Assembly: GCA_944363525.1 (NCBI GenBank)
Contig: CALVUF010000007.1
Location: 1-64,000 of the forward strand
Length of the DNA: 64,000 bases
Direction: 5' to 3'
Origin: an uncultured Bacilli bacterium
Lineage (GTDB): Bacteria; Bacillota_I; Bacilli_A; RFN20; CAG-826
Shown: positions 30,589 to 55,299 of the stretch, in pieces
Position numbering within the stretch: the first letter of the stretch is position 1
Layout of the letters: every line of letters begins with the position of its first letter
The notes under the pieces: generated by a model
Told to the model about the DNA's origin: nothing
The model's input: only the letters and a program-made list of their open reading frames with translations
The model's database searches: none
Made by a program: the position numbers and the translations under genes

Positions 30589-31599
30589 ATGAAGCGTCAT
30601 TTCTTCGGAAGCATCTTGCTTCTGTTCCCGTTGTTCTCAGCCGGTTGCTCATCGGATAATTTCGTCATGATTTTCTCGGGGGCCGAGGATGAACGCAACG
30701 CCTACCTATACCAGCGTTTATACGAGCGATTCCCCAACTACGAAATCATCATTCAATCGGTTGGATCGGGAACCGTGTTCACCAAATTGGCCAATGAGGG
30801 CGTTCGTTCCGACTGCGACATCTTCTATGACCTTGATATAACCAATGCCGCCCAGTTGAATTCGATGGAAGACGATGGCCACAAGGTCTTGGCTAATCTT
30901 TCGTCCCTAGAATTCACCCCCCCCTCTTACGATTCGTCCGTAACGAGCCTGACCGGAATCGAGGATAACTTCCTAGTTAATTGCAAAACCGACCTTGTTT
31001 TCATCGTTAACCACGAAGTTTTGGAAGAAAACAACTTGCCGGTTCCGAGCAGTTTTGCTGATTTAACTAATCCCGTCTATCGGGGTTATATCCAAATGCC
31101 CAACCCACAATCCAGTGGGACGGGGTATGGTTTTTATAACGGCATGGCCTCCCTATATGGCAAGGAAGCCGCTCTTTCTTATTTCCGGGAGTTCGGACCA
31201 AACGTCACCGAATTCACTTCCTCTGGCTCAGTTCCATTAAAATCCTTGGACCGGGGAGAGATCGGCATCGCTATTGGGATGCTTTGGCAGGGTTATCAAT
31301 ACGAATTGAAGAATCCTGACCTGGAGGTGATCATCCCGGAAGAGGGGTGCCCTTATAACCTGTTTACCATGGGGATGGTCGATACCCATGAGTTACGTCC
31401 GGCGGCTTTTGACGTTTTCCGCTTCCTCGTCGAGGAACTCAATTACGATCAGACTCTCCGCTTCACCTCCGACGTTATTTATGAAAACCAAGGGGCTTCT
31501 CTTACCGAAGGATATCCGACCGATGTTAAGGAAATCCCGATGAAGGGGCTAAAGGACCCCGCCTACAAGAAGGACCTATTGGATTCCTGGGAGTTTTAA
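30589..31599 (+). CDS. ABC transporter solute-binding lipoprotein (aminophosphonate/iron type)
   Basis: 336 residues; the signal peptide ends LFSAGCSS. The mature part is a type 2 periplasmic-binding fold of the family containing AfuA/FbpA and the 2-aminoethylphosphonate binder PhnS (VMIFSGAEDERNAYLYQRL at the start, RSDCDIFYDLD, and the conserved QMPNPQSSGTGYGF). Ligand-contact residues cannot be assigned by eye, so iron(III) and phosphonate remain open. Downstream gene content (cytidylyltransferase and LicD) favours a phosphonate or phospho-amine. It is followed after two bases by the ATPase gene. Confidence 0.85.
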   Translation: MKRHFFGSILLLFPLFSAGCSSDNFVMIFSGAEDERNAYLYQRLYERFPNYEIIIQSVGSGTVFTKLANEGVRSDCDIFYDLDITNAAQLNSMEDDGHKVLANLSSLEFTPPSYDSSVTSLTGIEDNFLVNCKTDLVFIVNHEVLEENNLPVPSSFADLTNPVYRGYIQMPNPQSSGTGYGFYNGMASLYGKEAALSYFREFGPNVTEFTSSGSVPLKSLDRGEIGIAIGMLWQGYQYELKNPDLEVIIPEEGCPYNLFTMGMVDTHELRPAAFDVFRFLVEELNYDQTLRFTSDVIYENQGASLTEGYPTDVKEIPMKGLKDPAYKKDLLDSWEF

Positions 31600-31601
31600 C
31601 T

Positions 31602-32357
31602 ATGGAAAGCATCGTCAAAGTCGAATCCTTGCTGAAGAAGTTTGGCAATAAGGTGGTATTGAATTCCGTCTCCTTCGATATCAAGCAAGGGGAATTCTTC
31701 TCAATCCTTGGCCCCTCGGGCTGCGGCAAGACCACTTTGCTCCGTTGCCTAATCGGCATCGAGCGTCCCGAAAGCGGATCCATCGCGAAAAACGGCGTCG
31801 ATATCACCAATGCCAATCCAAAGGATAGGGGGATGGGCATCGTCTTCCAAAATTACGCCCTCTTCCCGAACATGACGGTCTACCAAAACATCGCCTACGC
31901 CTTGAAAGCCCGGAAACTTGACAAGGAAACGATCGATCGGAAGGTTCGCCAAATCATCGACGACGTCGGCTTAAGCGACCATATCAACAAGAAACCCCGG
32001 CAACTATCCGGCGGCCAGCAGCAACGGGTCGCCATCGCCCGGACCTTGGTATTGAGGCCGGATCTCGTCTTGTTCGACGAACCGATGTCGGCCTTAGATA
32101 GCGACATCCGGATGCAATTACGGGCCTTGATCAAGCAAGTCCAGCAGAAGCGGGGCATCTCGATGGTTTACATCACCCATGACCAGGAAGAGGCTTTCTC
32201 TTTGTCCGACCGGATCATGGTCATGAACAACGGGAACATCTTGCAAATCGGGACGCCGAAGGAGATATACAACCATCCGGCGACTGATTTCGTTAAGAGT
32301 TTCGTCGTCAATAATTTGAATGAGAAGGTCCGCCTGATCAAGGAGAGCATCCAATGA
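31602..32357 (+). CDS. ABC transporter ATPase (PhnT/FbpC-like)
   Basis: 251 residues, a compact nucleotide-binding domain with only a short tail. Walker A GPSGCGKTT is near residue 36, Q-loop VFQNYALFPN, signature QLSGGQQQRVAIART, Walker B DLVLFDEPMSALD, H-loop YITHDQEEA. It lacks the long TOBE domain of sugar importers. The ATG follows the upstream stop by two bases and the stop overlaps the permease start (ATGA), so the three genes form one translationally coupled unit. Confidence 0.92.
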   Translation: MESIVKVESLLKKFGNKVVLNSVSFDIKQGEFFSILGPSGCGKTTLLRCLIGIERPESGSIAKNGVDITNANPKDRGMGIVFQNYALFPNMTVYQNIAYALKARKLDKETIDRKVRQIIDDVGLSDHINKKPRQLSGGQQQRVAIARTLVLRPDLVLFDEPMSALDSDIRMQLRALIKQVQQKRGISMVYITHDQEEAFSLSDRIMVMNNGNILQIGTPKEIYNHPATDFVKSFVVNNLNEKVRLIKESIQ

Positions 32358-34933
32358 CTGCCAAAGCCGAGCTGCGCCATTTTGGCCAGCAATCGGGCCA
32401 TTTCCTTAAGAAGGAATGGGGCCGGCTGCTGATCGTGGTCCTGATGGCCGTCTTCGCCTTAGCCCCTTTATTGGCAATGCTTTTTTCTTTGTCGGCCGAC
32501 GATTTCGTCTACATGTTCGCCGACCATCGATTCTACCAATCGATCGGCTTCTCCTTGCTCTATAGTTCGGTCGCGGCCGTCGTCTCGGTGGGGCTGTCCT
32601 TATTGATTGCCTTTTTGCTGGACCGTTCGCATCTAAAACATAAGAAGGTCTTCGTTTTGCTTTTGACCTTGCCGATGCTCGTTCCCTCGATTTCTATCGG
32701 CTTGGGTTTCCGGACCTTTTTAGGGACTTCCGGTTTCCTTGATCAGATAACTGGGTTGGAGACCTCGGCGACTGGTTTGGGGTCATTGATTCTATCTTCC
32801 ATCGTCTTATCCTTCCCGACTTCCTTTTTGATTGTCTACGACGCCTTCCATTATGAGGATAAGTCGGTTTATGACGCGGCCAGGACGCTCGGCATCTCGC
32901 CCATCAGCCAGTTCTTCTCCATCACCATCCCTTCCTTGAAAGGGGCCATCATCTCCTCTTTCTTCGCTTCTTTATCGCTGATCTTCTCCGACTATGGCTT
33001 ACCGATGGAGGTGGCCGGCACCATCCAAACCCTCCCGATCTATTTATATGAACAGGTCAACTCGACCTTCGAGTATGGTCGGGCAGCCATCGTCGGGCTG
33101 TTCTTGCTGTTGCCCGCCATCGCCTCTTTCATCGTCGATATCTTCGTTAAGGAAAGCGCCTCCGAGGAATCCTCCGCCGGCAATATGGAGAAGAGCAAAC
33201 TATTCGACGGGATTACTTTAGCCTCAATCATCGTCTTCTCCTTGTTGCTGTTTATCCCTCAACTCTCCTTCATCGCCTTGGCTTTTATTAAGTCTTTCCC
33301 CAACAATATGGCCTTCACCTGGGATAACTTCTCGGGCCTATTCAAATCCAGTTCGGGGCCGGGCATCAGCCGTTATGTCATCAATTCCTTGGAGATGTCG
33401 TTGCTGGTGGGGGCCATCGGGACGGCTTTGGCCTATCTGACCGCCTATTTCACCAGCCGGGTCCCGGGGAAACTCGGCAAGGGGATTCACTTTATCTCCG
33501 TTTCCTCGATTGCCATCCCCGGCATCGTCTTAGGGGTGGGCTATATCCTGATGTTCAAAGGGACCCATGGGTTCTTTTATGGGACGATGGCGATCTTGGT
33601 AGTGGTCAACGTCATCCACTTCTTCGGCTCCCCTTATCTGATGGCCAAGGATTCCTTATCGAAGATGAATAAGGAATATGAGAACGTCGGGTCGACGTTG
33701 GGCTTATCCAAGCCCCGGATCTTCTTCCGGGTCCTTATCCCCAACAGCATCCCCACCTTAATTGAGATGTTCTCCTATTTCTTTCTCAACTCGATGGTCA
33801 CCATCTCCGCCGTCTCTTTCCTATGCCGTTATGTCAATCAGCCTTTAGCGGTCCTGATCACCAATTATGAGAAGACTGGGAACTATGCGATGCAGGCGGT
33901 CATCTCCTTCGTTATCTTCGGAATCAACGTGATAGCCAAATGCTTATTCACCGGGGTGTCCTCGGTCTTGGCCCGGTTAACGGGCAAGACCCCGCGGACC
34001 TCCCCATCCTTAAGCCGGATTGAGTTCAATTATTTAGCCTATCTTGAGGCCCATAGCCGGCTTCCTTATGACGAGCATCTTCTTTCAAATAATCTCAAAA
34101 TCTCGGTTTCGGCCTTAAGCCGGTTGACCAAGGATTTAGGGGAAAGGAACCTCTTGCAGATCGATAGCAACGGCAATGTCTCGATCACCGAAATGGGGTT
34201 AAAAGAACTGGAGCCCTATCGGGTTAAGCGGGCCATTATTTTGGCCGCTGGGTTTGGTTCTCGGATGGCCCCAGTTACCTTGGACACGCCGAAACCTTTG
34301 GTTAAGGTTCATGGCAAGCGGATCATCGAGCCTCTGCTGGATGCTTTATACGCCAAGGGGATAACCGATATCGTCTTGGTCCGGGGGTATAAGAAGGATC
34401 AGTTCGATTGCCTGAAGGAGAAGTATCCGACGATTACTTTCCTAGACAACACCGAATTCAACGTCACCAACAACATCTCCTCCTTGATGCGGTGCATCGA
34501 TTATGTTGATCGGTGCTACATCCTGGAAGCTGACCTTTTGATCTCCAATCCTAATCTAATTCGAAAATACGAGTATGAGACCAGTTATATGGGGGCGAAG
34601 GTGGTCGAGACCGATGACTGGTGCTTCGACGTCAAGAAAGGGCGGATTGTCAATTACCGGATGGGTGGGGATGATTGCTATCAGGCCTATGGTATCTCCT
34701 TCTGGAATGAGGAGGATTCGGAAAAGCTCCGGATCTATATCCCGAAACTCTATTACTCCCATGCTGGCAAGGAGAACTTCTGGGATGGGTGCATCTTCCG
34801 GGCGTATAAGAATAAGTTCAAGATCGCCCTCCATAGCTGCACCAAATCCGATATCGTGGAGATCGATAATTTCAGCGAATTGGTGGCCTTGGATGATTCT
34901 TATGCCAATTATCCGCGGCACGAGGAGTACTGA
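32354..34933 (+). CDS. Fusion: double ABC permease, winged helix, LicC/PntC-like nucleotidyltransferase
   Basis: 859 residues in one uninterrupted frame. Residues 1 to about 550 are two tandem permease halves, the PhnU2-like layout, with EAA loops YDAARTLGISPISQFFS near 177 and YENVGSTLGLSKPRIFF near 440. A winged-helix domain (about 553-620; NNLKISVSALSRLTKDL) follows. Residues 624-859 are a nucleotidyltransferase with LAAGFGSRM (630-638), TPKPLVKV and an ILEADLLIS metal site, as in choline-phosphate or aminophosphonate cytidylyltransferases. Both parts are normally separate proteins. The fusion would place nucleotide activation at the inner mouth of the importer. A lost stop codon between two genes is the alternative; no in-frame ATG with a ribosome site exists near the junction. 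Confidence 0.88.
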   Translation: MTAKAELRHFGQQSGHFLKKEWGRLLIVVLMAVFALAPLLAMLFSLSADDFVYMFADHRFYQSIGFSLLYSSVAAVVSVGLSLLIAFLLDRSHLKHKKVFVLLLTLPMLVPSISIGLGFRTFLGTSGFLDQITGLETSATGLGSLILSSIVLSFPTSFLIVYDAFHYEDKSVYDAARTLGISPISQFFSITIPSLKGAIISSFFASLSLIFSDYGLPMEVAGTIQTLPIYLYEQVNSTFEYGRAAIVGLFLLLPAIASFIVDIFVKESASEESSAGNMEKSKLFDGITLASIIVFSLLLFIPQLSFIALAFIKSFPNNMAFTWDNFSGLFKSSSGPGISRYVINSLEMSLLVGAIGTALAYLTAYFTSRVPGKLGKGIHFISVSSIAIPGIVLGVGYILMFKGTHGFFYGTMAILVVVNVIHFFGSPYLMAKDSLSKMNKEYENVGSTLGLSKPRIFFRVLIPNSIPTLIEMFSYFFLNSMVTISAVSFLCRYVNQPLAVLITNYEKTGNYAMQAVISFVIFGINVIAKCLFTGVSSVLARLTGKTPRTSPSLSRIEFNYLAYLEAHSRLPYDEHLLSNNLKISVSALSRLTKDLGERNLLQIDSNGNVSITEMGLKELEPYRVKRAIILAAGFGSRMAPVTLDTPKPLVKVHGKRIIEPLLDALYAKGITDIVLVRGYKKDQFDCLKEKYPTITFLDNTEFNVTNNISSLMRCIDYVDRCYILEADLLISNPNLIRKYEYETSYMGAKVVETDDWCFDVKKGRIVNYRMGGDDCYQAYGISFWNEEDSEKLRIYIPKLYYSHAGKENFWDGCIFRAYKNKFKIALHSCTKSDIVEIDNFSELVALDDSYANYPRHEEY

Positions 34934-34963
34934 TAAGTTTACTAAACAAAAGGAGGGCGCATT

Positions 34964-35845
34964 GTGAAAGGTTCAAAACAGGTTTTGTCGAATTCCGGGA
35001 AGGACTATTACCTCAGTGATGAGGAGATGGACAAGCTCCGAACCGTAGAACTGGAGATATTGGCGGATACCTATGCCGCTTGCCGGAAAAGGAATATCCC
35101 TCTTTATTTAACCTATGGCACATTACTGGGGGCGGTACGCCACCATGGTTATATCCCTTGGGACGATGATGTCGATATCGCCGCCCATTATTCTGATTTC
35201 CCCAAAATCATCGAAGCGGTCAAGGAAGAGTTTCCGGATAAATACGATTTTGCCGGCTTGCCCGTCAACTATAAGACCAACGCTTTTTATGGCTTGAAGA
35301 TCATGAAGAAAGGGACGGAAGCAATCGAAATGCCCTCAGAGAATTGCCCCCGTCCGTTAGGGATATTCATCGACATCTTTGCCATCTTTAAGGTATCGGA
35401 TAACCCGAAGAAGCGATTGAAAGATTTCAAACGATTTGATTTCTGGGTTCACGTTGGAGCTTTGGCTTTTGAATACCGGCACAAGCCGAAGGTGGTGTTT
35501 GAACTGAGCCCCGAATCGAAGAAGTATTATCGGATGCGTCGCCTCTTCGGCTTTATCTGCAATCCCTTTTACGTTCATTCCCGGAAGGCATTATTAAAGC
35601 TATATACGAAATATGAGGATCAGGGCACAGGCTGCTATGCGGTTGATTATCTAGCGGGGATGAAGGGACAGACAATCGGCGAGAAAGAAATAACGTCTAT
35701 CTCCGAATACGAGTTTGCTGGCCACAAGTTCACCTCGTTTGAGAATTACGACTTCATCCTGAAGCTCTTATACGGCCCGACCTATATGGAACTGCCGCCG
35801 GTGGAGCAGCGGGAACGGCATATGATGATCAAAATTAAGGCTTAA
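34964..35845 (+). CDS. licD: LicD family phosphotransferase
   Basis: 293 residues. LicD proteins transfer phosphocholine or similar groups from a CDP/CMP-activated donor to glycans. The hallmark YLTYGTLLGAVRHHGYIPWD is at about residues 47-66, and the following DDDVDIA supplies the acidic metal-binding residues. The start is GTG 34964, supported by AAGGAGGG six bases upstream. It lies 30 bp after the fusion gene, on the same strand, and likely uses its product. Its 3' end overlaps the second licD by 11 bp tail to tail. Confidence 0.9.
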   Translation: MKGSKQVLSNSGKDYYLSDEEMDKLRTVELEILADTYAACRKRNIPLYLTYGTLLGAVRHHGYIPWDDDVDIAAHYSDFPKIIEAVKEEFPDKYDFAGLPVNYKTNAFYGLKIMKKGTEAIEMPSENCPRPLGIFIDIFAIFKVSDNPKKRLKDFKRFDFWVHVGALAFEYRHKPKVVFELSPESKKYYRMRRLFGFICNPFYVHSRKALLKLYTKYEDQGTGCYAVDYLAGMKGQTIGEKEITSISEYEFAGHKFTSFENYDFILKLLYGPTYMELPPVEQRERHMMIKIKA

Positions 35846-36701
35846 TCAAACGATCACCAAAGGATATTTCCGAGACGTAGTGGTGGGGTATCCGTTCTTC
35901 TTCCGGCGGATATTCCATATAGTTGCCGTATAGATACTTCAGCGTGGCATCCGGATTAGCTGGAGCCTTGGCTTGCCGACCTTCGAATTCCACGATTGAT
36001 TCCCCTTCGAATAGTTCAGCCGGAGCAATCTGGAATATGACATCGCTGGCGTTAACCCAGCCAGTGGATTCAAAGGCGTGTTTCTTTATCGATTTGTTTC
36101 TTATCGCCGTGGCTTTTTCCCGGGAGCACCAAAAGAAAGCCGCTCGAGATAAAAATCTAGCAATCTTGCCGATAATCGGATGATTGGGTTTTATTCCGGG
36201 AACGGGAAGGAATTGCTTCGGCAAGCATTTGGCGTTCAGCATGTATAAATAAGCTTTTCTAGTTAGATATTTGAACTTTTTGCTTGGGGAAGGGAAGCTG
36301 ACGACGGGGAATATATCGATGAATATCCCTTTGGCCATGTCACAACGTTGTTTGACGTATTCTTCGTAGATAGTTCCGTCTTTCATCAGCTTCGCGAAGC
36401 TTTGCCAGCAACGGGAATCTTTTTCCCGGCAATCGAGGTGAAAACCGTTCTCGTCTTGGTATTCGCCGATGAACCGATAATAGTCCTCGGCCGGCATACA
36501 GACATCGAGGTCATCATCCCAAGGGATGAAACCTTTGTGTCGGACTGCGCCAAGCAATGTTCCCCATCCTAATTGGTATCGAAGATTATGTTTTTGACAA
36601 AAATCGACGAAATGGTCGAATATTTCTAATTGAATATCTTTCAGTTTTTCGCGTTGTTCTTCGGTTAGTTTCAAGCAGGGTTTGATTTGTATTTCACTCA
36701 T
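35835..36701 (-). CDS. licD: Second LicD family phosphotransferase
   Basis: 288 residues. The motif YQLGWGTLLGAVRHKGFIPW followed by DDDLDVCM is at about residues 42-70. It is clearly related to, but distinct from, the neighbour on the other strand, so the two may decorate different sugars or positions. GGAGG stands five bases before ATG 36701. The convergent overlap with the first licD means the two transcripts are complementary at their ends. Confidence 0.9.
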   Translation of the reverse strand: MSEIQIKPCLKLTEEQREKLKDIQLEIFDHFVDFCQKHNLRYQLGWGTLLGAVRHKGFIPWDDDLDVCMPAEDYYRFIGEYQDENGFHLDCREKDSRCWQSFAKLMKDGTIYEEYVKQRCDMAKGIFIDIFPVVSFPSPSKKFKYLTRKAYLYMLNAKCLPKQFLPVPGIKPNHPIIGKIARFLSRAAFFWCSREKATAIRNKSIKKHAFESTGWVNASDVIFQIAPAELFEGESIVEFEGRQAKAPANPDATLKYLYGNYMEYPPEEERIPHHYVSEISFGDRLIKP

Positions 36702-36741: not shown

Positions 36742-37620
36742 TCAAGGTTTCGTCGCCATTATTACCTTCTCTATGATGTTTTGGTCTACGTCTATGTCAA
36801 ATTTTCTGGCAATGAATTTACCGCAGCTCATCAATTCACCAAAATCGGTTTCCGTGAATACCTTAGGACTTGACGATTTTTTTGGGGGGAAGACGGCATA
36901 GGTAATGCCTGGCAAAAATGAATCTTTAAATTTTGGGTTCGTCCAAAGCAAAGTTTGAAAGAAACACTCGTCTGGTACGAGCTTATTTTTGAAGAAATTC
37001 AAAAATTCCGGATGGCTATGCAAATAGTCCAATATGTAGGTCACCGCTTCACGATTATAGGCGAACCATTGATAACCAAACCGGAACGCATGTTCCTTAT
37101 AAAAACGCGAGATCAAGAACGGGAAAGTATGTTTTCGCCCCCCTGTTAGATATTTCCAAATATTCCTAAGAAAATACGCCGACCCTTTGCTGGCGCGCAT
37201 GCATTGGAAATAGGGAACCTGATTTCGTTTGTTGAATAGCTTCGAACTCGGCATTAAGGTATTGAAGTTGGCGTTTCTATTTTCAGACAGCGTTTGATAA
37301 AGATCCGTTGATTTTTTGATCAGCAAGTCCTGGCCGCTGCAAAGCACATAAAAGAAGTAATTGCTTTTGGCTGACGCTTTCAGAAGTTGTATTGTAGCGA
37401 GTACTAAGGTAATGTCGCCCCAGTTGGTCAAAATTCTTTGGCTGTCGGGCAAAATCACAACGTTCCTCTTATTGAGCAACTTAAGTTCGCCAGAAGAAAA
37501 CTCAAATTTCTTGTCGAAGTGAATGTATATATCGAATAGGTCGTCTTGAAATTGATCGATGAATCTGCCTACTTGAAGAATACTTTTATGTGCAAGTATT
37601 AATATTGCAATCTTTTCCAT
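36742..37620 (-). CDS. Core-2/I-branching-like glycosyltransferase (GT14)
   Basis: 292 residues. The N-terminus IAILILAHKSILQVGRFIDQF, the segment VLCSGQDLLIKK and the late VPDECFFQTLLWTNP match bacterial GT14 proteins, which add branching sugars. There is no membrane segment. ATG 37620 lies six bases past a TACAAT box and has no Shine-Dalgarno. It is more AT-rich than the LicD genes and begins a stretch of AT-rich glycosyltransferase genes. Confidence 0.82.
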   Translation of the reverse strand: MEKIAILILAHKSILQVGRFIDQFQDDLFDIYIHFDKKFEFSSGELKLLNKRNVVILPDSQRILTNWGDITLVLATIQLLKASAKSNYFFYVLCSGQDLLIKKSTDLYQTLSENRNANFNTLMPSSKLFNKRNQVPYFQCMRASKGSAYFLRNIWKYLTGGRKHTFPFLISRFYKEHAFRFGYQWFAYNREAVTYILDYLHSHPEFLNFFKNKLVPDECFFQTLLWTNPKFKDSFLPGITYAVFPPKKSSSPKVFTETDFGELMSCGKFIARKFDIDVDQNIIEKVIMATKP

Positions 37621-37626
37621 TGACTA

Positions 37627-37655
37627 ATTGTAAATATGACACTCTCTAAATTCAA
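37627..37655 (-). promoter_or_regulatory. Promoter of the GT14 gene, predicted leaderless
   Basis: On the minus strand: TTGAAT (37655-37650), a 17-bp spacer, TACAAT (37632-37627), then TAGTCA and ATG. The divergent GT2 gene has a -10-like GATAAT (37715-37720) six bases before its ATG. Confidence 0.7.
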
Positions 37656-37726
37656 CATGCCGATGAATATTGATTTTTCCTAGAATTATGACTTTTGGAT
37701 ATGGGGAATGTTATGATAATAAAGCT

Positions 37727-38569
37727 ATGAATTATTCTGTGCTTATGTCAGTCTATTCGAAAGAAAACCCTGGCTTTTTGAAAACCGCTTTGAATAGCAT
37801 TTTAAATCAGACTTTGTCGACAAACGATTTTGTCATTGTTCGCGATGGTTCCTTGCCCGATTCCCTAAACGAAGTTTTGAACGAGGCAGTTAAAAAATAT
37901 CCCGAGATTGTCCATGTTTATGGATACGAGAAAAATGAGGGCCTCGGGTATGCGTTGAATTTTGGATTGCCTTATTGCCGAAACGATATTGTGTTAAGGA
38001 TGGACTCCGATGATTTCTCGTTTCCGAATCGAGCCGAAATCCAGGTCGAAAAATTCGTTGAAGATGGGGTGGATTTGTCATCTTCTCAGATTTTATTGTT
38101 CGACTCGGATCCATATAAAAGTATTGGTGAACGGGTTGTGCCTTTGACTGCCGAAGAAATCAAACGTTTTTCTCAGTCCCGTTCGCCTTTCAATCATCCT
38201 TCGGTCATTTTCAGCAAAGCAAAAGTCATGGAAGCTGGTGGCTATAAACCACTCCTATATAAGGAAGATTATTTTCTGTGGATTAGGATGATTCAGAAAG
38301 GGTGCAAGGTGAATAACATCCCAGACCCCGTTGTAGCGATGAGAATTAATCCAGAAACTTTCTTCAAACGTAAGAACAAAAGTGTTTATCAGAGCGGCAA
38401 ATGGCTGAATCGTTATATGCTTAAAACCAAATACATAGGGCGTATAAGATATATAAAGAACGGCATGATTAATTTTATGCGATATCACCTACCAAATTGG
38501 CTTGTCTCGAAAATTACTAAAAGATATTGGAGCGGAAGCAAGGATCAATCGGATCCCAATCCCCAGTAA
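37727..38569 (+). CDS. Glycosyltransferase family 2
   Basis: 280 residues with a GT-A fold. YSVLMSVYSKENPGFLKTAL opens the nucleotide-binding domain, FVIVRDGS follows, and LRMDSDDFSFPNR holds the DxDD metal site near residue 95. KEDYFLWIRM is the acceptor-side motif. ATG 37727 is preferred over an upstream frame extension because it fits the family N-terminus and follows a -10-like box at six bases. A tail of basic residues may bind the membrane surface. Confidence 0.87.
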   Translation: MNYSVLMSVYSKENPGFLKTALNSILNQTLSTNDFVIVRDGSLPDSLNEVLNEAVKKYPEIVHVYGYEKNEGLGYALNFGLPYCRNDIVLRMDSDDFSFPNRAEIQVEKFVEDGVDLSSSQILLFDSDPYKSIGERVVPLTAEEIKRFSQSRSPFNHPSVIFSKAKVMEAGGYKPLLYKEDYFLWIRMIQKGCKVNNIPDPVVAMRINPETFFKRKNKSVYQSGKWLNRYMLKTKYIGRIRYIKNGMINFMRYHLPNWLVSKITKRYWSGSKDQSDPNPQ

Positions 38570-38682
38570 TCGAGTCTTTATCAACCTTCGGAGGTAATGG
38601 CGGATCATCCCTACGTGCTTTGCAAACTTCGACTCTTCCCGAAACCCGCCATCGAACCTGGGGGAAGCGATTTGCTGTCAAA

Positions 38683-39978
38683 CTACTTTGGCAACGTTTG
38701 AACGTCATCCGCCGCATTTAATTCTTTTTGGTTATTAACTTTGATTGAAGTGAGTAGATTCAGGAATTTTTGCGATTGCTCGTCTATGGAGAAGCATGTT
38801 TTAGCGGTTTCGAATTGACGTTGATACACTTTCGGGTCTTCTTTGCCGTTAAGTATATTGCTTATAAGTTTTTCCAGGTCCTCTTTCGAATCAGCAATGT
38901 AGCAAGACGACGTTTCCTCAAAAAATGAAATGCATCCGGAGTTCTTATTTCCATAGGCTATGACTGGTTTTCCGAATGCCAGCGAATCCCCAACTTTAGT
39001 TGATAAAGAGTATTCGGTATAGGGGAGATATTTATCGCTTAAGCTTTCTACGATCAATAGCGCACCGGCTTGTTCCATTGTTTTTAATACTTTCGCATAA
39101 GGAATAGCGGGGTGGAGACACAAGTTTCCAGTTTGGTCTTCTTTGCTAATATCTTTTGAATAAATATGGACTTTTATAGGACTGTTTAGATTTCCCAGGA
39201 TATTGGCAACGTCTTTAAGTGAATCCAGTCTTCCGGCTTCAAGGTTTCCAAAGAAATACCAATCTTTAGTTAAATCAATGCCTTGGCACGGCTTTGGCTT
39301 GATGTCAGAGGATATGTATATAACGGTACTGGGGCATTGGTATTTCTCTTGATACTTCATTTGTATCTTATTCGATTCAAAGATAAGGATTGGGTTGGTG
39401 TCCATGAACTTATCAACCGTTTGAAGATACTTTTTCATATAGAGTCTATTAAGCCATTGCCCTTTATGGTGCTCGCTGAAAACGTAGTCATCGTATACAC
39501 AGCCGATTAGGGGAATCTGGTACTTTCTGGAGAAATGCAAAGCTATATCAAAAACAAAGAAATCAGGCGAAAAAACCATAAAAACATAGTCTGGTTTTAA
39601 ATCATCCACAAACTTTTCCAATTCTGGCGTATCCCAATACTTTTTGCGCCAAATCAATTTTCTAAGAAATCTATATAATGGTGTTTTATGTTTTGGCCTG
39701 TATGTATTTATTGAGTTTTCGGCGCTGTCCGGCAAATCCTCCCATTTGAATGTTTGCCCGGTTTTAATGCTTCTCTTGAATCTTTTCTTCACCAACCGGA
39801 AATCCGTGATTTGGAACAGGGTTGCGCAGTTTCCTTTTGAAGGGGTTCTGGCGTCTGAAAAGATCTGCGCCAAATTCTCCTTGTCAAATTGATGGAAATA
39901 CGAATCCATGGAACGAGATTGCTCGTTCTTGTTGTATGGCTGTGGGGCGACGATGAGTATTTTGGGCTTATTTTGCAT
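38683..39978 (-). CDS. Glycosyltransferase, GT4-like
   Basis: 431 residues with a GT-B fold. The N-terminal domain begins PKILIVAPQPYNKNEQSRSM; the C-terminal nucleotide-binding domain includes WYFFGNLEAGRLDSL and the STKVGDSLAFGKPVIAYGNK segment that replaces the classical E-x7-E. A degenerate terminus makes the donor unclear. It converges with the GT2 gene; the 113 bp between them hold nothing recognised. A GAAAG-type site before ATG 39978 is weak. Confidence 0.75.
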   Translation of the reverse strand: MQNKPKILIVAPQPYNKNEQSRSMDSYFHQFDKENLAQIFSDARTPSKGNCATLFQITDFRLVKKRFKRSIKTGQTFKWEDLPDSAENSINTYRPKHKTPLYRFLRKLIWRKKYWDTPELEKFVDDLKPDYVFMVFSPDFFVFDIALHFSRKYQIPLIGCVYDDYVFSEHHKGQWLNRLYMKKYLQTVDKFMDTNPILIFESNKIQMKYQEKYQCPSTVIYISSDIKPKPCQGIDLTKDWYFFGNLEAGRLDSLKDVANILGNLNSPIKVHIYSKDISKEDQTGNLCLHPAIPYAKVLKTMEQAGALLIVESLSDKYLPYTEYSLSTKVGDSLAFGKPVIAYGNKNSGCISFFEETSSCYIADSKEDLEKLISNILNGKEDPKVYQRQFETAKTCFSIDEQSQKFLNLLTSIKVNNQKELNAADDVQTLPK

Positions 39979-40031
39979 TTTCTTTCTTTGATTTTGACTT
40001 TTGGTGACTTGCTTTTATTAGTATAATAAAA

Positions 40032-40562
40032 ATGATGGTTTTACGAGACAAAATTCAAGGATTAAGGAATAAACCTGTAAGTTTGTCAAAACTTGCAGGA
40101 AAAGGAATTAAGCGTTTTTCGACGGTGCTTGCTGTGCTTTGCGTTGCGATCCTTGTTGTTTCTTTTGCAACGATGTTTAATTCGGTTGATGTTAGTTTTG
40201 GCAACGTTGGCATTGTTGGCACTTATGTCGCTTATATTAACGATGAGCGCTATCGTTCCGTTTCTTTCCATTCCAACAATGTTTGCTATATAACTAACTA
40301 CGCCGATATGGACGGGAATGTTTTTCCGGAGCCAACGACTGTTGGGCGGAGATGGAGACTTGCGTATGAGTCCAAGTTCTTCTCCTACCAATCAGATTTT
40401 TACGTTACTTCGCCTTTTGTTGTTGCGTTAAATACTTTGGATGCTCCGGACGGCAGCGCAAGCATTGAGACCTTTTTCTTTATAAAGGACACCCCTTCAT
40501 TGTACTCGCGCCCAACCGACTACGACCGTCCAGAAAAACAATTTAGGTACGCTAAGCAATGA
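40032..40562 (+). CDS. Unknown single-pass membrane protein next to Wzy
   Basis: 175-176 residues. A basic N-terminus is followed by one transmembrane helix (about 30-52) and an extracellular domain of about 120 residues with many Tyr and Phe. No family was recognised. TATAAT (40022-40027) lies four bases before the first ATG and seven before the second (40035), so the transcript should be leaderless; the second ATG fits the usual spacing. The stop overlaps the start of the polymerase gene by ATGA, so it may regulate or accompany polymerisation. Confidence 0.65.
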   Translation: MMVLRDKIQGLRNKPVSLSKLAGKGIKRFSTVLAVLCVAILVVSFATMFNSVDVSFGNVGIVGTYVAYINDERYRSVSFHSNNVCYITNYADMDGNVFPEPTTVGRRWRLAYESKFFSYQSDFYVTSPFVVALNTLDAPDGSASIETFFFIKDTPSLYSRPTDYDRPEKQFRYAKQ

Positions 40563-41800
40563 CCATTTTGAAAAAAATAAATAAGGTTTCTGTAAGTTGT
40601 GCTCTTTATTATTTAGGAATTTTTGTTATTGGCCTGGGGTGTACAAACCTCTTTTCACTCCAAGGCTACTTGCTTCTAGTCGGGACTGTTATAGTGGCCG
40701 CTTCTGCTATTTTGGATGGCGGTTTGCAATTTAACCGAAAATATATCGTACTCGTTTTATTTTGCATTTCCTTTTTCGCATTCAGTTTTATTTCTGGCGA
40801 AGACCGAACGGTTAGAAACCTTCTCTACAACTTTTGTTACTATGTCTTTATGCCGGTTGTTTTATCTGCTGTCTTTTTTCAAAGATCGCACGATAGAAAC
40901 GCAAAAAAGGCGACAATTTGGTCGATAGCTAGTGGCTTCGCTATTGGAGGTTGGCTTTTAATCGTTTCTACTTATTTATATGCTGGGAATGATTTTGACA
41001 GCGTTATCGTAAGTTTTTGGGATAATCACAGTATTTCAAGGACCGGTATTCAATTATATTTTGTTCCTCTGTTCGCTTTGTCGTTTTCTTGGTTCTTGAA
41101 TGTCAAGCGTTGTAATGGCCTACGATACTGGTTCGTTTTTGTTGCACTTATGCTATATGATGCATTTGTATTTTATTATTCGCTTGAAATCGGTAATCGT
41201 GCGATTTTTGTGTCGATCGCTGCCGTAATTGTTTTCTTTTTCCTGCTATTGGTTTCAAAGCTCCGCAGCAACAAAATTAAACTTGCCATTATTGTTATTT
41301 GCATTTTGATGATCCTCTTGATTGTCGGAATGACGCTAGGCATTTTGCCGATGCCTGATTTTTTAGCGAATATACCTGTGATAAAAAGATTTTTGGCAGG
41401 GGGATCTAATAGTCAACGGGTCAAGCTATATATGCAGTTCTTTGCCAATTTTTGGAGGTATCCTTTTGGCGGAACATATCATGTGATTGAAGACAGATAT
41501 GTTCATAATTTTATTTTGGACATATATACTTTCGGTGGCATTATACCTTTCGCCTTGTTTCTTATTCTGCTTGTTTGGTATCTGTGTGGGCTTAAGTCCG
41601 CTGAAGCAAAATACACACTAGGTTATGACGGGCTTTTCCTATTTGTTGGCATTTTTACTATCGGCATGTTTGAGCCGCTTTTTGAAGCTAATGCATTTTA
41701 CATTCCTATAGTTTGTTTGTTGTTTGAAGACATTTTTGCTCTCACCAAAGAACCCGTGAGTGTTCGTTCTATAAAAATCAAACGAAGCTATCGAATATAA
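40559..41800 (+). CDS. wzy: O-antigen/capsule polymerase-like membrane protein
   Basis: 413 residues with about ten to twelve hydrophobic helices and one larger extracytoplasmic loop near residues 280-330. Topology, AT-rich composition and place among glycosyltransferases match Wzy/O-antigen ligase-like proteins, which link repeat units outside the membrane. The loop segment GGTYHVIEDRYVHNFILDIY, with a conserved HN pair, is typical. Wzy sequences vary so much that the call rests mainly on topology and context. Confidence 0.72.
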   Translation: MTILKKINKVSVSCALYYLGIFVIGLGCTNLFSLQGYLLLVGTVIVAASAILDGGLQFNRKYIVLVLFCISFFAFSFISGEDRTVRNLLYNFCYYVFMPVVLSAVFFQRSHDRNAKKATIWSIASGFAIGGWLLIVSTYLYAGNDFDSVIVSFWDNHSISRTGIQLYFVPLFALSFSWFLNVKRCNGLRYWFVFVALMLYDAFVFYYSLEIGNRAIFVSIAAVIVFFFLLLVSKLRSNKIKLAIIVICILMILLIVGMTLGILPMPDFLANIPVIKRFLAGGSNSQRVKLYMQFFANFWRYPFGGTYHVIEDRYVHNFILDIYTFGGIIPFALFLILLVWYLCGLKSAEAKYTLGYDGLFLFVGIFTIGMFEPLFEANAFYIPIVCLLFEDIFALTKEPVSVRSIKIKRSYRI

Positions 41801-41818
41801 TTTAATTGGAGAAATTTA

Positions 41819-42952
41819 ATGCTTGTAATCTTGGTGACGAACAGCGTTCTTATTCATCAGTATTTTCTTTGCAAAGCCCTTGCAGAAGAACCAGACATTG
41901 ATTTTAAATTGATTGTTTCAGAGCCTCCAGCCAATTTGAATAATCAAAAGGCCAGACTTTTTGGTAATTCCTTGAATTTTAATTTTGATATTATTCGTTC
42001 GTATGATAGCAATGTCGAAAGAACTCGTGCGATAGAACTTATAAAGCAAGCCGATATATGTATCGTCGGCGCCGAAGATCACTCGTTGCTAAAGGGCGTT
42101 AAGCGCCCCTTTTTCCGTTATAGCGAACACTTCAATAAAAAGAACCACTGGTACTTGCATCCTAAAACATTTTTAAGGTCCCCTAAGATTTATTGCAGAT
42201 ACCATAACGAGCAACAAGGCTCATATCTTCTATGCGCTTCCTACTACGCTAAACGTGATTTTAATTTGTGCGGTCTTTACCGTAATCATTGCCTTAAGTT
42301 TGGGTATTTTCCCCAAGGGAATATCGGGAATCATTTGCCTAGCAAAAAGTTCCCGATCAACAAACTGGACGAGCTTAAGATTGTCTTTGTGGGCCGGTCA
42401 ATCAATTGGAAACATCCAGATATTTCTTTTTATGCTTTAAGGAAGTTACGGTCACAAGGCGTTAATTGCACTTTGACTTTTGTGTCGCTTCCATCGAAAC
42501 TTCGGGAACGGATTTTCAATAAGTATAAGCAGGAAATAGATGATGGATTGGTTAAGATATATGACGAACTTCCACCCAAAGACATTATGTCTATTTTCGC
42601 CGAGTCTCATCTGTTTATCTTCTCCAGTGATCAAGGCGAAGGATTTGGCGCCACGCTTTATGAGGCCATGACATCTAAGGTTGCCGTTATTGCCAACGCT
42701 AAAGCTGGCGCCACTAACCTTTTGGTAAAAGATGGAGAGAATGGCTTTGTTTATAAAACCAAGAGGCAGCTAGACAGGATTTTGGATAATATTGCCAAGA
42801 ATCCTTCAATGTTAGAGAAAGTGGCCAGTGGGGCAAAGAAGTTCACCGAAGAGAAATATAACGCCAAGGTTGCGGCTCATAATTTAGTTGAGTTCGTCAA
42901 GTCGGGGTATACCAAATCCTTCCCCGATGACGAACCGATTTCGAAACTTTGA
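41819..42952 (+). CDS. Glycosyltransferase family 4
   Basis: 377 residues with a GT-B fold. VTNSVLIHQYFLCKALAEE opens the acceptor domain. The donor-binding half has IVFVGRSINWKHPDI and the E-x7-E region SSDQGEGFGATLYEAMTSK. GGAGA lies about eight bases before ATG 41819. It belongs to the run from 40032 to 44133 on the same strand. Confidence 0.87.
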   Translation: MLVILVTNSVLIHQYFLCKALAEEPDIDFKLIVSEPPANLNNQKARLFGNSLNFNFDIIRSYDSNVERTRAIELIKQADICIVGAEDHSLLKGVKRPFFRYSEHFNKKNHWYLHPKTFLRSPKIYCRYHNEQQGSYLLCASYYAKRDFNLCGLYRNHCLKFGYFPQGNIGNHLPSKKFPINKLDELKIVFVGRSINWKHPDISFYALRKLRSQGVNCTLTFVSLPSKLRERIFNKYKQEIDDGLVKIYDELPPKDIMSIFAESHLFIFSSDQGEGFGATLYEAMTSKVAVIANAKAGATNLLVKDGENGFVYKTKRQLDRILDNIAKNPSMLEKVASGAKKFTEEKYNAKVAAHNLVEFVKSGYTKSFPDDEPISKL

Positions 42953-42954
42953 TT

Positions 42955-44133
42955 ATGAAAACAATTATTCAATTTAATGGAACTTTATTTGGATCGACCG
43001 GAGCGATCTTAAAGAACATAGCAAACGGTCTTTCGGCCGAATTCCGTTTTTATGACGTGACTCCCGATTCAACGTCCGAGCACGGGTTTTGCTTAACCGG
43101 GTCGTATTTGGGCCGCCAATGGCAAAAAGTGCTTTGCCAGATAAATGGAAGCGATGGTTTCCACTCAAAATTAACGACCAAATCCCTTCTGAGATGGCTA
43201 GATGAAATAAAGCCGGACCTCTTTCATTTCCATAATATTCATGGCTATTACTGTAATCTGCCTCTGTTGGTTGGTTATGCAGTTAGTCATAAGATCCCAA
43301 TCGTTTATACGCTTCATGATGCCTGGACCTTTACTGGCCGCTGCGGATATTTTGATGTCGCCCACTGCGACAAATGGCTATTTGGATGCGGGCATTGCCC
43401 GGCCAAATGGCAATATCCCAAGGCTCGTTTATTCGATACCTCGGCCAAGCAATGGAAACTGAAAAGGGAAATCCTTACCGGTAAAGGCATTACTTTCATT
43501 GCCCCTTCTGAGTGGCTGGCCCGTTTCGCTAAGCAGTCCTATTTAGTCGATGAAGACATCCGGGTCATAAACAATGGTATCGATACCGGTATATTCAACG
43601 CCGATGGCGATTCCTATAAATTCGGTGAAGGGATGGACGATAAAAAGATCATCCTTTCGGTTGCCTACCCATTCGGTCCCAATAAAGGCTTGAATGACCT
43701 GAACGCCTTGCAAGGAAAGATCGACACTTCCAAGTACCAAATCGTGGCTGTTGGCGTTACCAATGAGGATAAGACAGTTCCTGGTATTCGCCGCATTGCC
43801 CCGACTAAAGATAAAAGCCTATTGGCTTCTTTATATCGTCGGGCAGACGCTTTTGCTTTCTTCACCCATCAGGACAATTACCCGACGGTGCTATTGGAGG
43901 CTTTATCCTGTGGTTGCCCAGTCATCACTTATGATGTTGGTGGATGCGGGGAAATAGTCGAAGACGGGCGGACTGGTTATCTAATTAAGGAAAACGATAT
44001 TGACGGGGCGCTTAAGGCTTTAGACAAGATTGATTCGATCGATCGAAAAACCTGCCGGGAAGAGGGGCAAAATCACTCGATACCGGCGTTCGTGGAAGAA
44101 TATCGGAAACTTTACGAAGAAAAGCTGAAGTGA
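42955..44133 (+). CDS. Glycosyltransferase family 4
   Basis: 392 residues. HFHNIHGYYCNLPLLVGYAV and YTLHDAWTFTGRCGYF resemble colanic-acid-type (WcaC-like) transferases. The donor site is VINNGIDTGIFN with the E-x7-E region HQDNYPTVLLEALSCGCPVI. Four closely spaced cysteines (CGYF, CDKW, CGHC) may bind a metal. ATG 42955 starts two bases past the preceding stop; an in-frame TTG inside that stop is less likely. Its stop directly abuts the stop of the opposite capG-like gene. Confidence 0.88.
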   Translation: MKTIIQFNGTLFGSTGAILKNIANGLSAEFRFYDVTPDSTSEHGFCLTGSYLGRQWQKVLCQINGSDGFHSKLTTKSLLRWLDEIKPDLFHFHNIHGYYCNLPLLVGYAVSHKIPIVYTLHDAWTFTGRCGYFDVAHCDKWLFGCGHCPAKWQYPKARLFDTSAKQWKLKREILTGKGITFIAPSEWLARFAKQSYLVDEDIRVINNGIDTGIFNADGDSYKFGEGMDDKKIILSVAYPFGPNKGLNDLNALQGKIDTSKYQIVAVGVTNEDKTVPGIRRIAPTKDKSLLASLYRRADAFAFFTHQDNYPTVLLEALSCGCPVITYDVGGCGEIVEDGRTGYLIKENDIDGALKALDKIDSIDRKTCREEGQNHSIPAFVEEYRKLYEEKLK

Positions 44134-45261
44134 TTACTTTCGCCACGTCGTCATATTAACGATATTGGCATAGCTTTGGATGATTCGGACCACTCTAATC
44201 GAAGTATTGGTTACTTGGTAAGCCTCTGACAATGGCAAAGGCTCGTGGTTGTTATGCATAGCAATCGCTAGTTCAGTAGCTTTTAGCACGTCCTCTTTGT
44301 CGATGCCGCCAACGACGATTGATCCGGCGTCCAAACCTTCGGGGCGTTCGGTGGAGGTTCTGATCAAGACCCCGGGGAATTGCTCGATGGCTGACTCCTC
44401 GGTAAGCGTGCCGGAGTCAGATAAGACGCATAAGGCATTCTTCTCTAACTTAACGTATTCGAATAAGCCAAAGGGTTTGAGGTTTTGGACTAGGGGATGG
44501 AACTTGAAGTTCCGTTTCTCAATGAATTTCCGGCTTCGTGGATGGGTGGAATAGATAACCGGGACTTGATACTTCTCGGCGATGGCATTGATGCTCTCCA
44601 TCAATTCGAAGAAGTTCTTCTCGATATCGATGTTCTCTTCCCGGTGGGCGGATACCACGATGTATTTGTTCTTTTCTAGCCCTAACTGTTCAAGGACGTT
44701 GCTGTTATCGATCTTATCCTGATATTTATCCAATACCTCTTTCATCGGGGAACCGGTGACAAAGATGGTTTTGCCATCGATCCCTTCTTGAAGCAAATAC
44801 CTCCTCGCATTCTCGGTATAGGGCAAGTTGATGTCGGCGATATGGTCAACGATGGTCCGATTGGTCATCTCGGCCACGTTCCAATCCCAGCAACGATTGC
44901 CCGCTTCCATATGGAAGATGGGGGTCTTCAACCGTTTGGCGGCGATGGCCGAGAGGGCACTGTTGGTGTCGCCCAATACTAAGACGGCATCCGGTTTCTC
45001 CTGTTGGATTAAGGCATAGGATTTGGCGATGACGTTGCCCATGGTTTCACCAAGGGTTGAGCCAGCGCAGTCGAGGTAATAATCGGGGGCCCTTAAGCCA
45101 AGTTCATCGAAGAAGACCTGGTTTAACTCATAGTCATAGTTCTGACCGGTATGGACCAGGATATGATCAAAGTACTTATCGCAGGCTTTGATGGTTTCGC
45201 AAAGACGGATGATCTCGGGTCTAGTGCCCAGAATCGTCATTAACTTCAGCTTATTGGCCAT
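44134..45261 (-). CDS. capG: UDP-N-acetylglucosamine 2-epimerase-type enzyme (CapG/FnlC-like)
   Basis: 375-residue cytoplasmic non-hydrolysing epimerase. GTRPEIIRL near the start, LVHTGQNYDYELNQVFFDEL, HMEAGNRCWD, and SDSGTLTEESA are the family landmarks. With the two genes upstream it completes UDP-L-FucNAc synthesis from UDP-GlcNAc. The Shine-Dalgarno GGAGGT lies in the last codons of capF. Confidence 0.88.
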   Translation of the reverse strand: MANKLKLMTILGTRPEIIRLCETIKACDKYFDHILVHTGQNYDYELNQVFFDELGLRAPDYYLDCAGSTLGETMGNVIAKSYALIQQEKPDAVLVLGDTNSALSAIAAKRLKTPIFHMEAGNRCWDWNVAEMTNRTIVDHIADINLPYTENARRYLLQEGIDGKTIFVTGSPMKEVLDKYQDKIDNSNVLEQLGLEKNKYIVVSAHREENIDIEKNFFELMESINAIAEKYQVPVIYSTHPRSRKFIEKRNFKFHPLVQNLKPFGLFEYVKLEKNALCVLSDSGTLTEESAIEQFPGVLIRTSTERPEGLDAGSIVVGGIDKEDVLKATELAIAMHNNHEPLPLSEAYQVTNTSIRVVRIIQSYANIVNMTTWRK

Positions 45262-45267
45262 ATTGGT

Positions 45268-46377
45268 TTATACCTCCTCGTAGATGGTATCAGGTTTATT
45301 GGGGTCGAATAATTCCGAGGCCCACATAATGGTGACCGAATCCTCAGTCCCGATGTTGGTGATTGAATGGGTATAGCCACAGGGGATATCGACAACCATT
45401 AGGTTATCTCCCGAGCAGATATATTCGTATACCTTAGTATCACCGATTTTTCTAAACTTAATCGAGCAAGTCCCTTTGACGACTAAGAACTTCTCGTTCT
45501 TGGTATGGTGATAATGGTTGCCTTTGGTTATCCCGGGCTTGGATGCATTAACGCTTACTTGCCCATAGCCATCGGTCCGGTAAAACTCGGTGAATGATCC
45601 CCGGTAATCAACGTGGCTATTAAGCGGATAGGCAAAACCAGTTTCCTCCGGCAGGTAGGAAAGGTAGGTCGCATACAGTTTTTTAACGAACTCATCCCCT
45701 TGGCAGGGCAACATCAGGTTGGTCCGGGAGTCCTTAAACGATTGAATTAAATCCGCGATCTCCCCGATGGATTTGATATAGGATGGGGAAATCGAAAGAA
45801 TGGACTCGCTGCCGGATCCGTTGGATTCGATCAGTTTGACCAAGGTATCGCATATATCATCGATATAGATGAATTCCCTAGTTACCGAAGGATCGGTTAC
45901 CTTAATTGGCAAATCGTGGGCGATGTTGTAGCAAAAGGTGGCCACTACCGAGTTGTAGTTCGGTCGGCACCATTTGCCGAACACATTCTGGAACCGATAG
46001 ACATAGACGGGATTGCCGGTTTCCTTTTGGAAGGAAAGAAGATAATCCTCAGCCATTTTCTTGGATTTGCCATAGTCATTGTCTAGGGTCGCTTGGGTGG
46101 AAGAAGCAAAAGCGATTGGCAGCTTTTTATTTGCTTTCCTGATCAATTCAATCAAGCGGTAAGTCAGATTGGCATTGCCGTCATAGAACTCTTTTGGATC
46201 CAAGGGGCGGTTTATCCCGGCGAGATGGATGCAAAAGTCGGCTTTAACAATGTAACCTTCCAATTGGTTTAGATTATCGATATCGATCGGCAAAACCTCA
46301 TATTTGGCTTCCTTTAGACGGAGGCAGAGGTTCTTGCCGATGAAACCCTTCGACCCAGTGACGAGGATTTTATTCAT
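45268..46377 (-). CDS. capF: CapF-like reductase/epimerase with C-terminal cupin
   Basis: 369 residues. An SDR domain (about 1-240) with NAD(P)-binding TGSKGFIG and the active-site YGKSK is followed by a cupin domain (about 260-369) with GNHYHHTKNEKFLVVKG, which holds the metal-binding histidines. This two-domain form is specific to CapF/FnlB. The start ATG 46377 overlaps the capE stop by eight bases. It acts second in UDP-L-FucNAc synthesis. Confidence 0.9.
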   Translation of the reverse strand: MNKILVTGSKGFIGKNLCLRLKEAKYEVLPIDIDNLNQLEGYIVKADFCIHLAGINRPLDPKEFYDGNANLTYRLIELIRKANKKLPIAFASSTQATLDNDYGKSKKMAEDYLLSFQKETGNPVYVYRFQNVFGKWCRPNYNSVVATFCYNIAHDLPIKVTDPSVTREFIYIDDICDTLVKLIESNGSGSESILSISPSYIKSIGEIADLIQSFKDSRTNLMLPCQGDEFVKKLYATYLSYLPEETGFAYPLNSHVDYRGSFTEFYRTDGYGQVSVNASKPGITKGNHYHHTKNEKFLVVKGTCSIKFRKIGDTKVYEYICSGDNLMVVDIPCGYTHSITNIGTEDSVTIMWASELFDPNKPDTIYEEV

Positions 46378-47392: not shown

Positions 47393-47491
47393 GTTGAGTT
47401 TGTTGCTCCTATTGGATTGGCGTTGATACTATACTCAATTATCAATCTAAAAGGAACATAAGGGGTTGGGCTAGCCTTGTTTAACCTAAAT

Positions 47492-55260: not shown

Positions 55261-55285
55261 CCTTTGGTCTTGACCTGTGTACGAT
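55257..55285 (+). promoter_or_regulatory. Promoter of the priming sugar transferase
   Basis: TTGACC (55257-55262) overlaps the helicase stop; a 17-bp spacer leads to TACGAT (55280-55285). Fourteen bases separate the -10 box from ATG 55300, giving a leader of only about eight bases without a Shine-Dalgarno. Confidence 0.55.
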
Positions 55286-55299
55286 ACCCACGTTTGCTT

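Follow-up and report, generated by a model that had tools for sequence, protein, structure and literature searches.

A candidate import-driven variant of phosphonyl surface tailoring, with an importer permease fused to a cytidylyltransferase, in an uncultured Bacilli bacterium

Introduction

Phosphonate decoration of bacterial surfaces is currently predicted from PEP mutase. Two described pathways come close to the locus analyzed here, which lies in a 64,000-nucleotide stretch of DNA (the window) from an uncultured Bacilli bacterium. The Pnt pathway (PntC of Treponema denticola and Atopobium rimae; PMC6697681) resembles it in having a LicC-like CTP transferase with a glutamate at the amine site, and LicD-type transferases and glycan genes close by. 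The window system differs in having no PEP mutase, phosphonopyruvate decarboxylase or 2-aminoethylphosphonate (AEP) transaminase, such that the phosphonate would be imported, and in having its nucleotidyltransferase (NT) fused to the importer. The Lic pathway (licABCD), which places phosphocholine on surface glycan, follows the same order of import, CTP activation and LicD transfer. However, the window has neither a clear choline kinase nor a choline transporter, carries a PhnSTU-type ABC importer instead, and has Glu in its NT at the position of LicC residue 105, an Asp.

The phnW-phnX genes encode AEP catabolism, and the PhnS2-PhnT2-PhnU2 transporters found with PhnW-PhnX (loci L115, L116 and L117) belong to the same substrate-binding protein (SBP), ATPase and double-permease families as the window transporter, with SGS and Gln cleft positions common to all of the SBPs. 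Their permeases, in contrast, share 28-30% identity with that of the window and form a separate clade, and the window has a cytidylyltransferase in place of the catabolic enzymes. The AepXVW and AepSTU transporters also have SBP_bac_6 (PF13343) binding proteins for AEP, but supply AEP catabolism in Proteobacteria and come without an NT (PMC8316502). AfuABC and P5PAB (PMC4546632, PMC8427247) have a homologous SBP with an SGT phosphate site, but their sugar- and pyridine-contact residues are not conserved in the window SBP.

Results

All open reading frames between 30589 and 36701 are intact and present. The first encodes a PhnS2/AfuA-like SBP lipoprotein of the SBP_bac_6 family, P0001 (30589..31599, plus strand; TIGR03261 1.9e-33, PF13343 1.5e-15), with the lipobox SAGC, and is followed after a gap of 2 nt by the gene for a PhnT2-like ABC ATPase (31602..32357, plus strand; TIGR03265 1.3e-102, top among 192 families). 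The ATPase gene overlaps by 4 nt (ATGA) a third gene (32354..34933, plus strand) encoding an 859 aa protein in which a double ABC permease, a winged helix and a cytidylyltransferase follow one another. A first-pass annotation made from the sequence alone had named a PhnS/AfuA-like binding lipoprotein and a PhnT-like ATPase, and both assignments hold up. It had also listed a double permease and then a LicC/PntC-like NT; both parts are there, but as one 859-codon frame rather than two separate genes.

The two LicD proteins that had likewise been claimed are clear family members. The gene for one (34964..35845, plus strand; PF04991 6.6e-30) lies 30 nt 3´ of the fusion gene in the same transcription unit, with a GTG start and an aaaggaggg Shine-Dalgarno sequence upstream, and the other is convergent (35835..36701, minus strand; PF04991 3.3e-37). 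They are the only LicD genes in the genome. Next to them is a surface-glycan cluster (36742..49087) with glycosyltransferases, a weak Wzy_C match, FnlA/WbcJ/WecB-type UDP-sugar enzymes (44134-47392, minus strand) and a flippase (47492-49087, minus strand), and a polyprenyl-phosphate sugar phosphotransferase for glycan initiation is encoded at 55264..55932 (plus strand; PF02397 3.1e-55, TIGR03025 8e-62). The LicD and glycan genes adjoin the transporter operon, in line with glycan tailoring. Among 18 genomes with the transporter, no LicD match was found in 5, some of these genomes being incomplete.

Within the single uninterrupted frame, the permease part (residues 1-545; 32354..33988, plus strand) matches TIGR03262 (PhnU2) at 6e-97 over residues 25-543 and has 12 predicted transmembrane segments, with its C terminus placed inside by hydropathy and the positive-inside count. 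The winged-helix segment (residues 552-620; 34007..34213, plus strand) comes from the AF2 model, with pLDDT mostly 85-94, helices at 555-567, 574-581 and 585-597, and strands at 601-603 and 608-611; the permease part of that model was unusable (residues 1-551 below pLDDT 50). A homologous N-terminal part of NT proteins from kinase operons matches HTH_24/MarR. The LicC/PntC-type cytidylyltransferase domain (residues 622-859; 34217..34930, plus strand) is recognized by its similarity to LicC (1jyk, 5.2e-25) and PntC-AEPT (6pd1, 2.9e-13), both of which match the C-terminal part of the fusion from residue 620 on. Foldseek with the domain model gave 1jyk as the best match (TM 0.90), followed by 6pd2/6pd1, and by sequence as well as by fold the domain is closer to LicC than to Tde-PntC, although Ari-PntC, an AEP-specific enzyme, likewise resembles LicC (PMC6697681).

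Since the window genome is a draft assembly, and a start codon and Shine-Dalgarno sequence are still found at the junction in relatives, the fusion might be an artefact of assembly or the inconsequential result of stop-codon decay. We rejected this reading, which we find barely credible, on comparative data: the fusion is present in 10 other genomes, whose permeases are 48-69% identical to that of the window, and all 11 form one clade in the permease tree (100/100). The internal start, moreover, is lost in the window, and because of this loss the gene can yield only the fusion. SBP, ATPase, permease and NT are encoded by adjacent separate genes in 9 further genomes, and the arrangement is kept in about 20 other genomes. 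Fisher p-values for the internal start, and for the Glu/Asp difference described below, serve for orientation only, the sequences being related by descent.

Profile searches, which the first-pass annotation had suggested as a check, returned PhnS2, PhnT2 and PhnU2 as the best-matching families, and the full set of SBP, ATPase and double permease is present, yet all three scores are below the curated NCBIfam equivalog cut-offs (116 bits against 393, 344 against 458, and 326 against 593, respectively). Controls linked to PhnW-PhnX are also under cut-off, with one permease at 333 bits and SBPs at 90-113 bits to PhnS2; the window SBP is thus no worse a PhnS2 member than theirs. Two other NT-linked SBPs score 151 and 180 bits.

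The SBP has AfuA (4r72) and P5PA (6wce) as relatives in the PDB, and its homology to AfuA, and to others with an iron-binding annotation, would suit uptake of ferric iron or a sugar phosphate (FbpA/AfuA type), with the NT acting on sugar phosphate. An identity as an iron transporter, prompted by PDB names, was rejected on the SBP residues: P0001 has no YY dipeptide anywhere that would correspond to the adjacent Tyr-Tyr iron ligands of FbpA, and the aligned cleft segment is WQ. For AfuA, H205 and D206 are essential for sugar binding (PMC4546632), and W233-Q234 occupy this sugar-contact position in the window SBP, while S176-G177-T178 match the phosphate-binding S148-G149-T150. Neither the iron(III)-type site that the first-pass annotation had regarded as evidence against its proposal nor the sugar-binding His-Asp pair is therefore present. 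The best fold match of the NT, LicC/PntC and not RmlA, and the phnW-phnX genes of cousin operons also speak against iron and sugar phosphates, and we consider this explanation very improbable. An AF2 model of the SBP, built from two sequences, was discarded (mean pLDDT 34).

The genomic association of transporter and NT is strict. In a permease-only query of 395 genomes, every permease at least 37% identical to that of the window (11/11) had an NT fused or directly downstream, and both permeases at 29-30% identity had phnW-phnX in place of the NT. The NT has relatives (40-47% identical) that are encoded in pepM-ppd-AEP-transaminase operons; these pepM-linked NTs cluster with the transporter-adjacent NTs, separate from kinase-fused NTs, and are the group nearest to the window NT that has a context-based assignment. 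A related clade, NT2, is found in kinase operons without pepM and without a window-type transporter. PEP mutase is absent in 19 of the 21 genomes with the window-type transporter, including that of the window. At one locus (L101), the next gene after the fusion belongs to the octopine-dehydrogenase family (PF02317 2.1e-26), and such genes are also seen in related NT loci. Members of this family couple amines to keto acids, such that the L101 partner fits a primary-amine substrate.

The acceptor-site residues point in the same direction. Glu725 of the window NT (34526..34528, plus strand) aligns with Tde-PntC Glu104, the residue with which that enzyme touches the amine of AEP (PMC6697681, Rice et al. 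2019). Every pepM- or transporter-linked NT that was compared has Glu at this position, whereas Spn-LicC (Asp105) and the choline-type LicCs linked to BCCT transporters or kinases have Asp. The window NT thus retains cytidylyl-acceptor residues, the lack of which the first-pass annotation had set against its proposal, with Glu725 of the AEP type. Because most NT2 members, from kinase operons, share the Glu, Glu725 alone is no proof of AEP. The second amine-contact position, Tde-PntC Glu196, is LicC-like in the window (Asp811; 34784..34786, plus strand; Spn-LicC Asp192); it is Asp in many transporter-linked NTs and Glu in L006 and in pepM-linked NTs.

Family searches of the window genome, which is about 95% complete, gave no match to PEP mutase (PF13714, TIGR02320), no match over cut-off to PhnW or phosphonatase, and no choline kinase (LicA) over cut-off. 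The earlier remark that neither a choline kinase nor phosphonate biosynthesis (pepM) was visible is thereby borne out genome-wide. As a candidate LicA, the weak APH-fold protein L020 was rejected; it is encoded far from the locus, scores 22.6 bits where the cut-off is 29, falls below cut-off in both profile libraries, and is 22% identical to a lic-type operon kinase. The lack of a choline kinase over cut-off argues against a lic-type pathway in which phosphocholine is imported and converted to CDP-choline, as do the transporter, which is not of a choline family, and the choline-type NTs found near BCCT transporters and kinases, which have Asp in place of Glu725 and lie outside the clade of the window NT. 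We therefore think such a pathway very unlikely, even with LicC as the nearest solved structure, the aromatic residues W756, F809 and W810 kept in the window NT, and a LicD family defined on phosphocholine.

Discussion

We propose, with a probability of about two in three, that the locus encodes a scavenging form of phosphonyl tailoring, in which AEP, or as a second choice phosphoethanolamine, is imported, activated with CTP, and attached by LicD to surface glycan. The first-pass annotation had suggested that a phosphonate or phospho-amine is imported ready-made and then passes through these steps, and the residues, the absences and the strict transporter-NT coupling agree in supporting it. 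The ligand, reaction, transfer and acceptor glycan are proposed from sequence and gene context. In this model, the lipoprotein would capture extracellular AEP (or its near-isostere), and the ATPase and 12-TM permease would import it. On the cytoplasmic side, the permease's own C-terminal cytidylyltransferase domain would combine AEP with CTP to give CMP-AEP (or CDP-ethanolamine), a conversion that would trap the imported compound. The LicD-family transferases, one 30 nt downstream and one convergent, could then transfer the aminophosphonate group to the glycan that the surrounding cluster produces.

The same machinery could instead act on phosphoethanolamine, with CDP-ethanolamine as the donor for LicD transfer. 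The two compounds are near-isosteric, the amine-contact residue would suit both, and the octopine-dehydrogenase-family partner in L101 and related NT loci suits any primary amine, phosphoethanolamine included. However, the transporter family is the AEP family, with cousins that feed PhnW-PhnX, and the closest context-assigned NTs are pepM-linked; phosphoethanolamine is thus rather unlikely as the substrate. The sequence fits either compound, and we infer that AEP is the most likely.

The fusion ties the transporter's substrate directly to that of the enzyme. It is possible, and we suggest this tentatively, that one membrane polypeptide combines aminophosphonate import with CMP-ester formation at the permease exit, in a trapping akin to group translocation, with the winged helix as a potential membrane-tethered regulator, and that the fusion defines a guild of bacteria wearing phosphonates made by others. 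A literature search, with many subscription papers outside its reach, turned up no account of either import-driven phosphonyl tailoring or a permease-NT fusion.

Taken as a whole, the system appears to be a variant of Pnt/Lic tailoring in a gut-type bacterium, with the phosphonate scavenged and not synthesized. If this is true, phosphonates reach the surfaces of organisms without C-P bond synthesis, and surveys based on PEP mutase would therefore undercount phosphonate decoration. Environmental AEP would have a fate besides breakdown for P, N or C, and a cell unable to make phosphonates could still wear them on its surface sugars.

A permease joined to a nucleotidyltransferase

Profile searches identified a lipoprotein binding protein (SBP; 30589-31599, plus strand) and an ABC ATPase (31602-32357, plus strand), with PhnS2 and PhnT2 as best families, followed by an 859-codon ORF (32354-34933, plus strand) whose permease part has PhnU2 as best family, a LicD gene (34964-35845, plus strand), and a second, convergent LicD gene (35835-36701, minus strand). 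The spacing between the first four genes (2 nt, a 4-nt overlap, and 30 nt with a good Shine-Dalgarno sequence) suggests a single transcription unit. The first-pass annotation had read the permease and a LicC/PntC-type nucleotidyltransferase (NT) as successive genes, but both lie in one polypeptide, the 859-codon ORF. The PhnU2 match spans residues 25-543 from end to end, and the LicC match spans residues 620-848; a PntC match covers the beginning of this second stretch. Hydropathy gives 12 transmembrane segments in the permease part, with 27 Lys/Arg on the "in" side versus 9 on the "out" side; by the positive-inside rule, the C-terminal domains are thus predicted to be cytoplasmic, on the same side as CTP. 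In an AF2 model built from 8 sequences, residues 552-855 (roughly 90 pLDDT) are predicted to form a winged helix (wHTH) and then a nucleotidyltransferase fold, for which the nearest structure is LicC (1jyk, TM 0.90), followed by PntC-AEPT (6pd2, 6pd1). Our literature search found no description of a permease-cytidylyltransferase domain architecture.

Recurrence, origin and genomic coupling

The same fusion is found in genomes G105 (locus L006, 68% identical), G209, G097, G034, G182, G183, G230, G231, G146, and G522. SBP, ATPase, permease, and NT are four separate genes in nine further genomes (G519, G506, G534, G483, G600, G144, G663, G739, G715). The permease tree places the fused proteins in a single clade (support 100/100) that excludes the adjacent-gene operons, so loss of the stop codon between neighboring genes is the most likely origin. 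Judged from these comparisons, the fusion is real and old. It was secondarily lost once (L019/G046), where an NT from another sub-clade is located elsewhere.

With free NT genes as the control, all 10 fused relatives (L006, L018, L100-L106, L108) have a Met exactly at the free-NT start position. A Shine-Dalgarno match of at least 5 nt precedes this junction Met in 9 of the 10, versus 4 of 164 other internal Mets, and the Met is kept even though linker residues are just 0-18% identical to the window's. Two products, the full-length fusion and a free wHTH-NT, are probably made in these relatives. The window's fusion has no Met at this position; its internal start has been lost, leaving the fusion as the only possible product.

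Because a query containing the NT would bias the result, the permease part alone was searched against 395 genomes of the class. Every permease with at least 37% identity (11/11, own included) is accompanied by an NT, fused in 4 and directly downstream in 7. The two permeases at 29-30% (G333, G531) belong to ATPase-permease-SBP operons followed by phnW- and phnX-like genes for catabolism of 2-aminoethylphosphonate (AEP), and G600 holds both kinds of operon. PhnX scored above the curated cut-off in all three genomes, as did PhnW in G600, the sole one checked for it. Given these two kinds of operon, members of a single transporter family in these bacteria serve either AEP catabolism or nucleotidyl activation. 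PhnS2 scores are 116 bits for the window's binding protein, 151 and 180 for two other NT-linked ones, and 90-113 for those of catabolic operons; since the latter score no higher than the window's, sub-cut-off scores are no argument against AEP.

Ligand and substrate

The iron site of FbpA contains a Tyr pair. No Tyr-Tyr dipeptide occurs anywhere in the window's binding protein, which disfavors an FbpA-type iron site. Aligned with AfuA and P5PA, the protein keeps Glu229 and shares the SGT phosphate site of AfuA (Ser148-Thr150), but has Trp-Gln where AfuA carries His205-Asp206, a sugar-binding pair that AfuA needs to bind G6P (PMC4546632; PMC8427247). Gln at this site is common to catabolic and NT-linked binding proteins.

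A tree of 63 NT domains separates kinase-fused NTs from a group that includes the transporter-linked NTs and those of pepM-ppd-transaminase loci (L012, L015; enzymes identified over cut-off), as well as those of L013 and L014, where pepM adjoins the NT. Glu104 and Glu196 of Tde-PntC lie at the AEP amine, with Asp105 and Asp192 as LicC counterparts (Rice et al., PMC6697681). The first position, aligned to Glu104, is Glu725 in the window, and every transporter-linked NT, whether fused or adjacent, and every pepM-linked NT examined likewise has Glu there; the residue is Asp in Spn-LicC and the three NTs adjoining a BCCT-like transporter and kinase (L091-L093; BCCT identity confirmed for L091). 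As these sequences share descent, the count is a pattern and not an independent sample. The second position is Asp811 in the window.

Directly after the L101 fusion lies an octopine dehydrogenase family gene (Octopine_DH, PF02317; L101:4425-5549), which would make sense with a primary amine, not choline; the transferred group there could possibly be N-carboxyalkylated AEP or phosphoethanolamine. Phosphoethanolamine could also replace AEP in otherwise the same import, activation, and attachment; set beside the NT group shared with pepM loci, we consider this rather unlikely, and AEP the better candidate.

A further operon group (L079, L081-L083, L086, L087, L107) encodes an Amidohydro_3-type protein (~520 aa), a wHTH-NT-APH kinase (~590 aa), and a second PntC-like-group NT. 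The kinase and both NTs are sometimes one 890-aa ORF, and an octopine-dehydrogenase domain is sometimes fused to the second NT.

Supply, transfer and acceptor glycan

Family searches of the window's own genome (1.57 Mb, 95% complete) found no PEP mutase, and no PhnW, phosphonatase, or choline kinase above cut-off. PEP mutase occurs in just 2 of 21 genomes with the transporter (G483, locus L121; G534, locus L122), in an AEP-transaminase-like-ppd-pepM operon with no NT beside it. The transporter-NT operon is also present in both, and its NT may therefore serve both supplies.

LicD was found in 13 of 18 genomes with the transporter, and the window's two LicD genes are the only ones in its genome. 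They adjoin glycosyltransferases, FnlA-type UDP-sugar enzymes, a flippase, and an initiating sugar transferase; LicD and polysaccharide genes also lie beside the operon in L006, L110, L107, and L145. FnlA, a WbcJ-like reductase, and a WecB-like epimerase (44134-47392, minus strand) would form a pathway for UDP-L-FucNAc or a related sugar, possibly part of the acceptor glycan. Within the glycan region, a 1929-aa ORF (49471-55260, plus strand) matches NF058533, "anti-phage protein ProA" (1529.8 versus a curated cut-off of 1500 bits). At four other loci (L127, L130, L132, L096), LicD genes lie close to class V aminotransferases that are relatives of AEP transaminase, with a ~420-450-aa protein resembling a cytidylyltransferase fusion (L127, L132, L096) or a 230-aa NT-like gene (L130); these represent a different, putative tailoring pathway.

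From the genes, fusion, recurrence, coupling, residues, and absences, all read from sequence, we put at about two in three the probability that AEP is the imported ligand, is activated as a CMP ester, and is transferred by LicD to an acceptor glycan. Such a pathway would be a variant of Pnt/Lic tailoring that lacks synthesis of the tailoring group.
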